From Solemya velum gill symbiont (GTDB lineage Bacteria > Pseudomonadota > Gammaproteobacteria > Chromatiales > Chromatiaceae), in assembly GCF_000787395.1 (NCBI RefSeq), contig NZ_JRAA01000001.1, forward strand, positions 620,001 through 684,000: a stretch of 64,000 nucleotides of DNA, given 5' to 3'. The first letter of the stretch is position 1; every line of letters begins with the position of its first letter. Under the pieces are notes generated by a model that saw only the letters and a program-made list of their open reading frames with translations, made no database searches and had not been told where the DNA came from. The position numbers were made by a program, and so were the translations under genes. Positions 14,165-17,521 of the stretch are shown piece by piece.

Positions 14165-14665
14165 ATGGTTGCTATTACAAGACGAGGCACTCCCTGTAAT
14201 ACGATTGGCGAACTGCCTGCAGTTGGTACCAAGGCGCCAAATTTTCGCCTTGTCACCGAGAATCTCAAGAACTGGACGCTGAAAAACTTCAAGGGAAAAA
14301 AGAAAACTCTCTATATCGTCCCAAGTCTCGATACACCGACCTGCGCCATGTCGACAAAAATATTCAACGACCGTATCGCCAGTGTCGACGGGGTTGTCAT
14401 CATCATCTCGGCTGACCTGCCGTGGGCGATGAAGCGCTTCTGCAGCACAGAGGGTCTTGAGCATGTCGTCAACCTGTCAATGATGCGAGACAAGAAATTT
14501 GGCAAGGATTACGGTGTCCTGCTTGTCGACGGCCCACTCGAGGGCATTACTGCACGTGCCGTGGTGGTTCTTGATGAAAATGACGTCGTGGTGCATACCG
14601 AGCTTTCACAAGAGATAGCGACAGAACCTGACTATGATGCCGCACTCAAGGCAATTGGCGCCTGA
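14165..14665 (+). CDS. tpx: Thiol peroxidase (atypical 2-Cys peroxiredoxin)
   Basis: Periplasmic-type or cytoplasmic Tpx that reduces alkyl and hydrogen peroxides through thioredoxin. The peroxidatic cysteine is C60 in SLDTPTCAMS and the resolving cysteine is C93 in KRFCSTEG, equivalent to C61 and C95 of E. coli Tpx. The length (166 residues) is normal and no signal peptide is seen. A clear AAGGAG site precedes the ATG. The gene sits between gcvPA and gcvPB on the same strand with gaps of 53 and 41 bases, an unusual place that would put it under glycine riboswitch control if no internal promoter exists. Confidence 0.95.
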   Translation: MVAITRRGTPCNTIGELPAVGTKAPNFRLVTENLKNWTLKNFKGKKKTLYIVPSLDTPTCAMSTKIFNDRIASVDGVVIIISADLPWAMKRFCSTEGLEHVVNLSMMRDKKFGKDYGVLLVDGPLEGITARAVVVLDENDVVVHTELSQEIATEPDYDAALKAIGA

Positions 14666-16158: not shown

Positions 16159-16530
16159 ATGAAACCTGGGAACACAGGCTTCACCCGCATCATCAAGGCG
16201 AGCGGCTACTCAATCAAGGGAATCAAGGCAACCTTCAAGCATGAGGCAGCCTTCCGACAGGAAGTTGCTGCTTCCCTGATACTTGTACCGCTGGCACTTT
16301 ACCTTGGAGATAGCGGAGTGGAGCGTGCCTTGCTGCTCGGTAGCTGGCTGCTGGTTCCACTGGTTGAGCTTATCAACTCATCGATTGAAGCTGTGGTCGA
16401 CCGAATTGGCCCTGAACATCACAAGCTATCTGGAAGAGCGAAGGATATCGGTTCTGCCAGCGTTGCACTGGCGATCATGATTGCCGCAATCATGTGGGCC
16501 CTGATCCTTGTACCAAAGTATCTGACCTGA
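16159..16530 (+). CDS. dgkA: Diacylglycerol kinase (integral membrane, DgkA type)
   Basis: Small inner-membrane kinase that phosphorylates diacylglycerol to phosphatidic acid, recycling the by-product of periplasmic glucan and lipid A modification. The 123 residues contain an amphipathic start, EAAFRQE, then three hydrophobic helices. The catalytic signature ELINSSIEAVVDRIG is at about residues 70-84, followed by KDIGSASVA. It starts three bases after gcvPB and is convergent with tatD. Family assignment is firm; its link to glycine metabolism looks positional only. Confidence 0.95.
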   Translation: MKPGNTGFTRIIKASGYSIKGIKATFKHEAAFRQEVAASLILVPLALYLGDSGVERALLLGSWLLVPLVELINSSIEAVVDRIGPEHHKLSGRAKDIGSASVALAIMIAAIMWALILVPKYLT

Positions 16531-16555
16531 TCTCTATCCGGCCTTGTCACACACA

Positions 16556-16716
16556 AGGCAGCAAGTGCCTCGGATCGGGTCGCATTGGCGCAGCCCGTTC
16601 AAGCTGCAGAGAAAGCGAAAGTGTGTCTGAGCAAACGCAGTGAGCGAGTTCCTTTCGCGCCGCAGCTTGAACGATCAGGCGGAGACAGGCGACCCGATGC
16701 GGGGTGCTTGATGCCT
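16556..16716. repeat. Nested inverted repeat between convergent dgkA and tatD
   Basis: Outer arms 16556-16583 and 16689-16716 pair at 23 of 28 positions by Watson-Crick rules, with three more G-T wobbles. A middle pair, GTTCAAGCTGC (16597-16607) and GCAGCTTGAAC (16662-16672), is perfect. An inner pair, GCGAAAG (16615-16621) and CTTTCGC (16652-16658), is also perfect. All three nest in the correct order, giving one long stem-loop about 160 bases in span. There is no T-run and no coding potential I can support. It could be a bidirectional transcription boundary, a non-autonomous repeat element, or a structured RNA. It lies between the two converging gene ends. Confidence 0.7.
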
Positions 16717-16741
16717 GATCACATCAAACGAAGCTCACAGC

Positions 16742-17521
16742 CTATCTTGATGCAGGAAACAGGCGATAGAAATTTTCCGTCGTAATCTTCATAACCTCGT
16801 CGACCGACAACCCTCTCAACTCTGCAATCTTTTCTGCCACGTAAGAGACATAGCCGGGTTCATTTGGCTTGCCCCGGAATGGAACCGGCGCAAGATAGGG
16901 AGAGTCAGTTTCGATCAGGATGCGATCAAGTGGCACCTTGCTCGCAACTTCGCGCAACTCTTCGGCGTTTTTGAATGTCACTATGCCTGAGAAGGAGATG
17001 TAGAAACCAAGTTCCAGGGCCTGTTGTGCCATTTCCCATGTCTCGGTAAAACAGTGCATGACGCCACCAGCCTCTTCGGCATGCTCTTCACGCAGAATAC
17101 GGATGGTATCTTCTCGTGCATCACGGGTATGGATAATGAGTGGCTTGCTGCATTCACGCGCAGCACGAATATGGGTACGAAAACGCTCCTGTTGCCACTC
17201 GACATCATCCTTGTTGTAGTAGTAATCCAGCCCGGTCTCGCCTATGGCAACATTCTTCGGATGCCCGGCCAGCTCAACCAACTCTTCAACACTCGGCTCC
17301 CTTCTGTCCCTGTCGTTGGGGTGTACACCGACGGAAGTTGAAATTGACGCAAAGGGCTCAACCAGCTCCAGCATTGCAGGATAACTTTCGAGGTCAATCG
17401 AGACGCATAGCATATGATCAATGCCATGCTCCATGGTCTTTTGAACCATGGTTTCAAATGAATCGTTGTAGTGCGACAGGTTAACCCTGTCGAGATGACA
17501 GTGCGAATCAATCAGCCCCAT
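16742..17521 (-). CDS. TatD family metal-dependent hydrolase (DNase)
   Basis: A TIM-barrel metallohydrolase of the TatD/YcfH group, associated with 3'-5' exonuclease activity in DNA quality control. The metal ligands H7 and H9 lie in IDSHCHLD, with GETGLDYY, PLIIHTRDA, MHCFTE and IETDSPYLAP further on. The length of 259 residues is normal. Placement next to holB, tmk and pilZ is the standard position of the YcfH paralogue in E. coli and relatives. The exact in vivo substrate of this paralogue is less certain than the family. Confidence 0.94.
   Translation of the reverse strand: MGLIDSHCHLDRVNLSHYNDSFETMVQKTMEHGIDHMLCVSIDLESYPAMLELVEPFASISTSVGVHPNDRDRREPSVEELVELAGHPKNVAIGETGLDYYYNKDDVEWQQERFRTHIRAARECSKPLIIHTRDAREDTIRILREEHAEEAGGVMHCFTETWEMAQQALELGFYISFSGIVTFKNAEELREVASKVPLDRILIETDSPYLAPVPFRGKPNEPGYVSYVAEKIAELRGLSVDEVMKITTENFYRLFPASR

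Follow-up and report, generated by a model that had tools for sequence, protein, structure and literature searches.

The hairpin at positions 16556–16716 of the window (the whole stretch of 64,000 nucleotides analysed here) is one copy of a dispersed repeat family, which has several copies per genome, and its single nested fold has been kept by compensatory change. We hypothesise, with a probability of about 0.6, that the element is a dispersed, insertion-type, mobile palindromic hairpin that is recognised as a folded single strand.

Position and fold of the window element

The limits of the element, 16556–16716 on the plus strand, come from folding and from a covariance-model match at 16558–16716, the models having been built with the window copy included. 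The nested arms proposed in the original prediction extend over about 160 bases, as claimed. The outer stem pairs 16556–16583 (plus strand, the 5′ arm) with 16689–16716 (plus strand, the 3′ arm), which are 28 nt each and form helices of 5, 11 and 10 pairs, giving 26 pairs, of which 23 are Watson-Crick and three are G-T, in agreement with the first count. Inside it are the two strands of an internal loop, GGCGCAG (16587–16593, plus) and GGCGGAG (16678–16684, plus), both of which contain the motif CGNAG. The middle stem, formed by 16596–16607 and 16662–16673 (both plus), is indeed perfect, but it has 12 bp rather than the 11 originally given. The inner stem of 7 bp is as described, with GCGAAAG (16615–16621, plus) pairing to CTTTCGC (16652–16658, plus). 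It encloses a conserved tip (16624–16650, plus), which consists of TGTCTGAG (16624–16631), a variable hairpin, and GAGTT (16646–16650).

The predicted minimum free energy of the plus strand of 16540–16730, folded as RNA, is −90.7 kcal/mol (z −5.16), a value equalled by none of 200 dinucleotide shuffles. The minus strand of the same region gives −84.2 kcal/mol (z −4.49). In the plus-strand fold a competing 7-bp hairpin (16541–16547/16553–16559) replaces the outermost five pairs of the element. Windows that cut through the outer arm of single copies are unremarkable, with z of −1.32 and −0.02.

The element lies in a gap of 211 nt with convergent ORFs on either side, and no T-run follows it on its 3′ side, both as first reported. 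The upstream ORF (16159–16530, plus strand, 123 aa) ends 25 nt before the element, and is presumably diacylglycerol-kinase-like, judged by eye. The ORF list places the downstream neighbour at 16742–17521 (minus strand, 259 aa); we take it, again by eye, to be TatD-like, and it has a homologue at E ≤ 0.001 in 20/20 genomes. Reading of the 161-bp element found no GTAG foot, and the T-rich 3′ tail hairpin that is common in copies elsewhere is absent from this one. At 14165–14665 of the window, a thiol-peroxidase-like ORF (by eye) lies between two glycine-dehydrogenase subunit ORFs.

Copies within the genome

BLAST of 16540–16730 against the genome of origin (2.70 Mb, 10 contigs; here G000) finds 10 places. 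A covariance model, R1, was built from these 10 copies, and has 20 matches in the same genome at E ≤ 1, of which 15 reach E ≤ 1e-8; at least two of the weaker ones stem from the opposite strand of a copy. Scanning G000 with the tip pattern gives 13 matches, and 0 with the reversed control. A dispersed repeat was one of the possibilities originally raised, with many copies as the sign of a repeat family, and this is what the counts give.

The stems have been maintained among these copies. In an alignment of the 10 copies made with MAFFT and not fitted to a structure, both partners have changed in 30/50 pairs and 91.9% of cells are paired, and in 500 shuffles none reached any of the five measures used. 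Structures slid by 1–3 columns are paired at 36.5–42.3%; this control is lenient because that alignment was also the source of the structure, but the double changes are nonetheless numerous. Both sides change in 17/19 modelled pairs of the outer stem and in 7/9 pairs of the modelled helix of the middle stem. The inner helix GCGAAAG/CTTTCGC has no double change among the 10 copies, and is therefore uninformative there. At one site shared with the sister genome (L058/L029) the outer arms have undergone matched changes, TTGCGTTTC/GAAACGCAA in one and TTGCATTTC/GAAATGCAA in the other. Conservation of pairing, which had been suggested as a check, is thus found among the copies. The idea of a decayed palindromic mobile element is not supported, since pairing is renewed by double changes and not lost.

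The internal loop is also conserved. Among the aligned copies CGNAG is present in 10/10 for strand 1 and in 9/10 for strand 2, and the two strands may form sheared G.A pairs. In one copy (L034:1501–1663) the outer arms now pair poorly, and the 5′ arm is similar to the one in the L072 pair; comparison of the arm sequences suggests an exchange of arms by recombination.

The strand that folds

Mismatches were counted as G.T or A.C on the TGTYTGA strand after aligning the arms in a way that treats every mismatch alike. For isolated mismatches flanked on both sides by three Watson-Crick pairs, the ratio G.T:A.C is 8:1 in the genus, 18:3 in the class and 25:12 across bacteria; with two pairs on each side it is 15:3, 27:16 and 60:36, respectively. 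Unrestricted counts give 54:19 in the genus (20 elements), 103:116 in the class (84) and 200:197 across bacteria (140). The unrestricted count is therefore symmetric outside the genus, and this has to be counted as contrary evidence, although the helix-restricted count is the cleaner because the unrestricted one also takes in loops and sequence beyond the stem ends. Overall, the counts modestly support the conclusion that the TGTYTGA..GAGTT strand folds as a single strand.

This bears on the suggestion that selection does not act on a folded single strand, the repeat being either a cruciform or chromosome-structure element of the DNA or a quasipalindrome maintained by template switching. The symmetric loose counts (103:116 and 200:197) are what such an element would give, and some copies have very long, nearly perfect stems (e.g. 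L236), which also fit. However, G.T exceeds A.C at isolated mismatches, and the tip and internal loops are conserved and yet non-complementary; for a quasipalindrome, template correction would be expected to erase the conserved mismatched loops as well. We regard this explanation as improbable.

The original prediction took the G-T pairs as a sign of selection at the level of RNA, and proposed a structured RNA. The bias towards G.T persists at isolated mismatches, and the covariation supports the view that the element is structured, but the RNA part of the proposal does not follow: the bias fits folded RNA and folded single-stranded DNA alike, and cannot tell them apart. An RNA family, whose transcribed copies act in trans or protect or terminate transcripts and whose dispersal is secondary, would account for the G.T excess on the sense strand. 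It would also account for several features of location. The hairpin strand carries the upstream gene at 56/89 pan-bacterial sites, the flanking ORFs are convergent around 6 of 14 copies in G000 (and co-directional around the other 8; ORFs called as the longest), and a T-rich 3′ tail follows 34/64 elements, compared to 3/64 with such a sequence upstream. Against it, the window copy has no T-tail, the compared loci have no conserved gene neighbourhood, and no Rfam family matches at gathering score. The genomic arrangements described in the following sections, namely filled and empty sites, inverted sites, and copies placed in inverted pairs, in tandem arrays (about 500 bp) or on either side of cargo, also argue against it, and overall we consider a structured RNA family unlikely, though less so than a cruciform or quasipalindrome.

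Comparison with the sister genome

The sister genome (G001) provides one pair of filled and empty sites. The flanks of its copy L043 align at 90% and 85% to a single place in G000, where about 40 nt lie between them. A deletion in G000 is equally possible as a gain in G001, and no direct repeat of 7 or more, as expected for a target-site duplication, was found at this one site. The approximately 40 nt left in G000 contain the REP-like sequence GCGCCGCTCCTAC. A similar sequence is present in several short copies on their 3′ flank, and the element may perhaps insert into REPs. GCGCCGCTCCTAC itself has 7 exact copies in G000 (G000:C1:1178736 and six others), a genome with no detected Y1_Tnp.

The two genomes have four further sites in common, of which one could be judged by one flank only; the element therefore moves slowly. 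At two of the four (L053/L028 and L058/L029) the orientation of the element relative to its flanks is the same in both genomes. At the others, L061/L035 (one flank only, as the G001 contig ends) and L066/L036 (both flanks), a long-type element is inverted relative to the flank, which could result either from flipping in place or from separate insertion. Inversion at two shared sites would also fit recombination between the arms, as the cruciform or quasipalindrome explanation would have it. The site of the window element is uninformative in G001, because the contig ends inside tatD.

Distribution beyond the genus

Similarity at the DNA level is confined to the genus, being found in 2/38 genomes, both of the same genus. 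The fold extends further. Covariance-model matches are present in 11/96 genomes of the family at E ≤ 0.1, including G000 and G001. A broader model, R2, was trained on copies from the family, using 33 matches at E ≤ 0.001 from 20 of 31 sources; several of the 11 sources left out were omitted since the other strand of the same copy had scored and would have entered the alignment as an antisense row. R2, which includes the window copy, matches the window only at the element. In the class it finds 57/369 genomes at E ≤ 0.01, from 44/272 genera and including G000, a lower bound because at most 8 candidates were scored per genome. The strict core pattern has no match in the genome contig collection.

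The tip can be followed across phyla. The exact tip CTGTYTGAGCGNAGCGAGTTC occurs in at least 117 stretches, while its chance expectation is about one per 257 billion bases at equal base frequencies. By title, the listed sources include Lachnospiraceae, Bacteroidales, Flavobacterium, Sphingobacterium, Variovorax, Haemophilus, Nitrospira, Patescibacteria, Desulfosarcina, Acidobacteria and others. In viral contigs the exact tip is limited to 8 stretches, and the plasmid queries made gave a single record, a Variovorax replicon. Across 18 genomes, mostly selected for known presence of the element, the tip pattern gives 194 matches and its reversed control 4; G008, the negative choice, has none.

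Both the tip, as TGTYTGA-[hairpin]-GAGTT, and the pairing that flanks it recur in Bacteroidota, Firmicutes, Nitrospirota, Patescibacteria and Haemophilus. Folding at z < −3 is predicted for 64/114 tip windows, compared to 9/113 windows placed at random in these loci, with 25 shuffles per window. Deep conservation of the pairing was analysed with no gaps and no model, using 115 elements from 107 loci, with the arms set against each other at seven offsets. With an offset of −1, pairing is seen at all seven positions, at frequencies of 0.56–0.93; each position exceeds the maximum of 200 shuffles and has 4–5 types of pair. At the six remaining offsets only scattered positions do so. R2 matches the tip in 60/70 loci chosen among the at least 117 listed (full-length GC 0.27–0.76), and detects second hairpins without the exact motif in these chosen loci as well. 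The model-free offset analysis is the cleaner of the two, because the loci were picked by the motif, which itself scores in R2.

Arrangement of copies and associated genes

Copies often occur in pairs. Where two exact tips lie on opposite strands among the at least 117 stretches listed, they are divergent with their tails outward in 8/8 loci, and same-strand pairs are found at two of the listed loci (L237 and L268). Haemophilus influenzae has 6 tips as 3 pairs, 208–233 bp apart, and Variovorax paradoxus has 21 tips, of which 16 form 8 pairs, 210–266 bp apart. G004 has 47 tip matches, many of them in tandem units of about 500 bp. One such array is L071 (G004:C1:1964700–1968300), in which each unit of about 500 bp carries one minus-strand and one plus-strand hairpin. 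Opposite-strand copies can also be further apart, as in L139 and L339, where they face each other around ordinary genes at 2.7–3.8 kb. The T-rich tail often contains a second hairpin, around a sequence like GGTTACTTTTCTTT.

Some pairs bracket genes of a more specific kind. On a Nitrospirales chromosome (L331:2105–3317), two same-strand copies, identical at 99% over 214 bp, bracket a PIN toxin and a FitA-like antitoxin. Three copies on one strand in Desulfosarcina alternate with two genes, one for a helix-turn-helix and one for a HicB-like protein, with more helix-turn-helix and PIN/M78 genes alongside. Another same-strand pair brackets an ORF with a metallo-beta-lactamase fold. In G049, two hairpin pairs bracket a membrane-like ORF of 424 aa and an ORF of 466 aa, and in G129 a hairpin pair flanks an ORF related to the latter, which shares 67% identity along most of its length and is split over two frames (residues 1–91 and 88–447). 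The 466-aa ORF (L068:1361–2761, L137:2161–3108) is nuclease-like by eye and has inverted hairpins around it in two families. It has no match above cut-off in Pfam, PADLOC or NCBIfam, VRR_NUC giving E 0.098. No transposase was recognised between paired hairpins in the cases read. Ordinary neighbours dominate the 17 loci inspected by eye, and cargo therefore seems to be the exception.

Search for a mobilising enzyme

A further explanation is a non-autonomous element of the REP or TIR type, mobilised by tyrosine transposases of the IS200, RAYT or TIRYT type. The general design is shared, including dimers, clusters and, in some families, long inverted repeats (PMC3733652), and the reverse complement of some tails contains GTAG (CTTTGCCTAC). 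G000 has no Y1_Tnp at E ≤ 0.001. In the class, Y1_Tnp is present in 41/57 element-positive and in 199/312 element-negative genomes, with no clear association, and 16/57 element-positive genomes are without it. Regions around Y1 genes were then inspected, comprising 20 with short IS200-like frames (111–175 aa) and 20 with longer frames. The hairpin is present in 1/20 of the former, in a region preselected for it, and the model matches 0/20 of the latter, where a loose regular-expression hit (L319) fails the model. Of seven longer-frame regions inspected for repeats, six have inverted repeats of other sequence around the gene. An element of the REP or TIR type moved by such transposases is thus very improbable, and a Y1, IS200 or RAYT partner is rejected as far as tested, both on its absence from G000 and on the regions lacking the hairpin. 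As a separate observation, the longer-frame Y1 genes of L317, L325, L311 and L308 have inverted repeats like CCCGGGTCAGAG, 763–777 nt apart, reminiscent of published TIRtrons.

Other partners were considered. GIY-YIG was found at 0/117 listed loci (out of at least 117), a weak result as the regular expression was strict. The 466-aa ORF is present in 13/369 genomes of the class and has hairpins within 1.5 kb only in G129, apart from the query copy in G049, which also has hairpins nearby. Since it is mostly far from hairpins, it is better regarded as cargo than as a partner. Clustering of 688 ORFs from 158 partly overlapping loci, inspected by eye, gave no recurrent neighbour family that would suggest a mobiliser, the larger clusters consisting of common or low-complexity frames.

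Proposed mechanism and significance

For the mobile hairpin recognised as a folded single strand, which is our preferred explanation, we propose that the sense strand would become exposed in single-stranded form, as lagging-strand DNA or as a transcript, and then fold. An enzyme acting in trans would recognise the tip and the internal loops, and would copy, move or flip the element. Two nearby copies could bracket a gene and carry it. Solitary copies in convergent gaps, the window copy among them, would be tolerated passengers, and may incidentally act on the 3′ ends of mRNA. The window copy has no T-rich tail hairpin and lies in a genome with no detected Y1; it is therefore probably mobile only with help, or immobile.

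A wider and more tentative proposal, which we think possible but would not yet favour, is that all these copies belong to one ancient family of folded-single-strand mobile hairpins, spread over many phyla and characterised by a TGTYTGA/GAGTT tip, a symmetric CGNAG internal loop and a T-rich tail hairpin, which would be moved or flipped by an enzyme and would serve as a cassette boundary for toxin-antitoxin or nuclease-like genes.

Dispersed hairpin repeats have so far mostly been catalogued per species, and for the best studied of them, the REPs, RAYT transposases provide the explanation. In the present case a single tip and a single nested architecture recur in Gammaproteobacteria, Bacteroidota, Firmicutes, Nitrospirota and Patescibacteria, over a wide range of GC content and apparently without RAYT. 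Three ideas thereby become testable: an enzyme that recognises the fold, a reading as RNA or as DNA, and pairs of hairpins that act as portable brackets around defence-like cargo. Annotators would also gain a model for a structured repeat to which no Rfam family was matched here.

Comparison with known systems

Rfam (release 15) has two matches in the window, both far below gathering score. In sets of 9, 12 and 11 loci it has none on the element, and only 5S rRNA and tRNA elsewhere, in two loci. Searches of open-access literature showed no description of the element, although an earlier one under a species name is possible; the listed publications that contain one of the motif strings are on other subjects, judged by title and the start of the abstract.

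Integron attC sites are imperfect palindromes that are used as folded single strands. Copies of the element can likewise bracket toxin-antitoxin genes, but in contrast to attC most of the copies read stand alone between ordinary genes. Prokaryotic MITEs are also short, non-coding and multi-copy, and differ in presence or absence between genomes, as the element does; the difference is that no parent transposon was found in the cases read, and no target-site duplication at the one polymorphic site.

ERIC, YPAL and other stem-loop families, of 100–200 bp and intergenic, have been named species by species (PMC2267715). They are like the element in size, intergenic location and stem-loop folding, the comparison with the 92 families listed there being by description only. 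E. coli appears in that list with ERIC and PU-BIME, and a search of E. coli genomes with the window copy gives no match (20,395 records, E 0.01, word size 11).

The REP, BIME and REPIN sequences associated with RAYT are likewise dispersed intergenic palindromes, occurring singly and as pairs of alternating orientation. A REP, however, is 20–40 bp long with a GTAG tag, whereas the element is a nested hairpin of about 160 nt with internal loops and a TGTYTGA/GAGTT tip, and the association with RAYT is not seen for the element, either in G000 or in the 40 Y1 regions. Dispersed palindromes in dimers and clusters include some families in which long inverted repeats replace REPs (PMC3733652). These TIRtrons and TIR families are likewise long, sometimes self-complementary, arranged in dimers or clusters, and present in several phyla. 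The longer-frame Y1 regions analysed here carry other inverted repeats (e.g. CCCGGGTCAGAG) and no element, the published TIRs being compared by description only. In its general class the element thus resembles REP, TIR and ERIC, and it differs from them in its phylum span, its conserved tip and its missing transposase.
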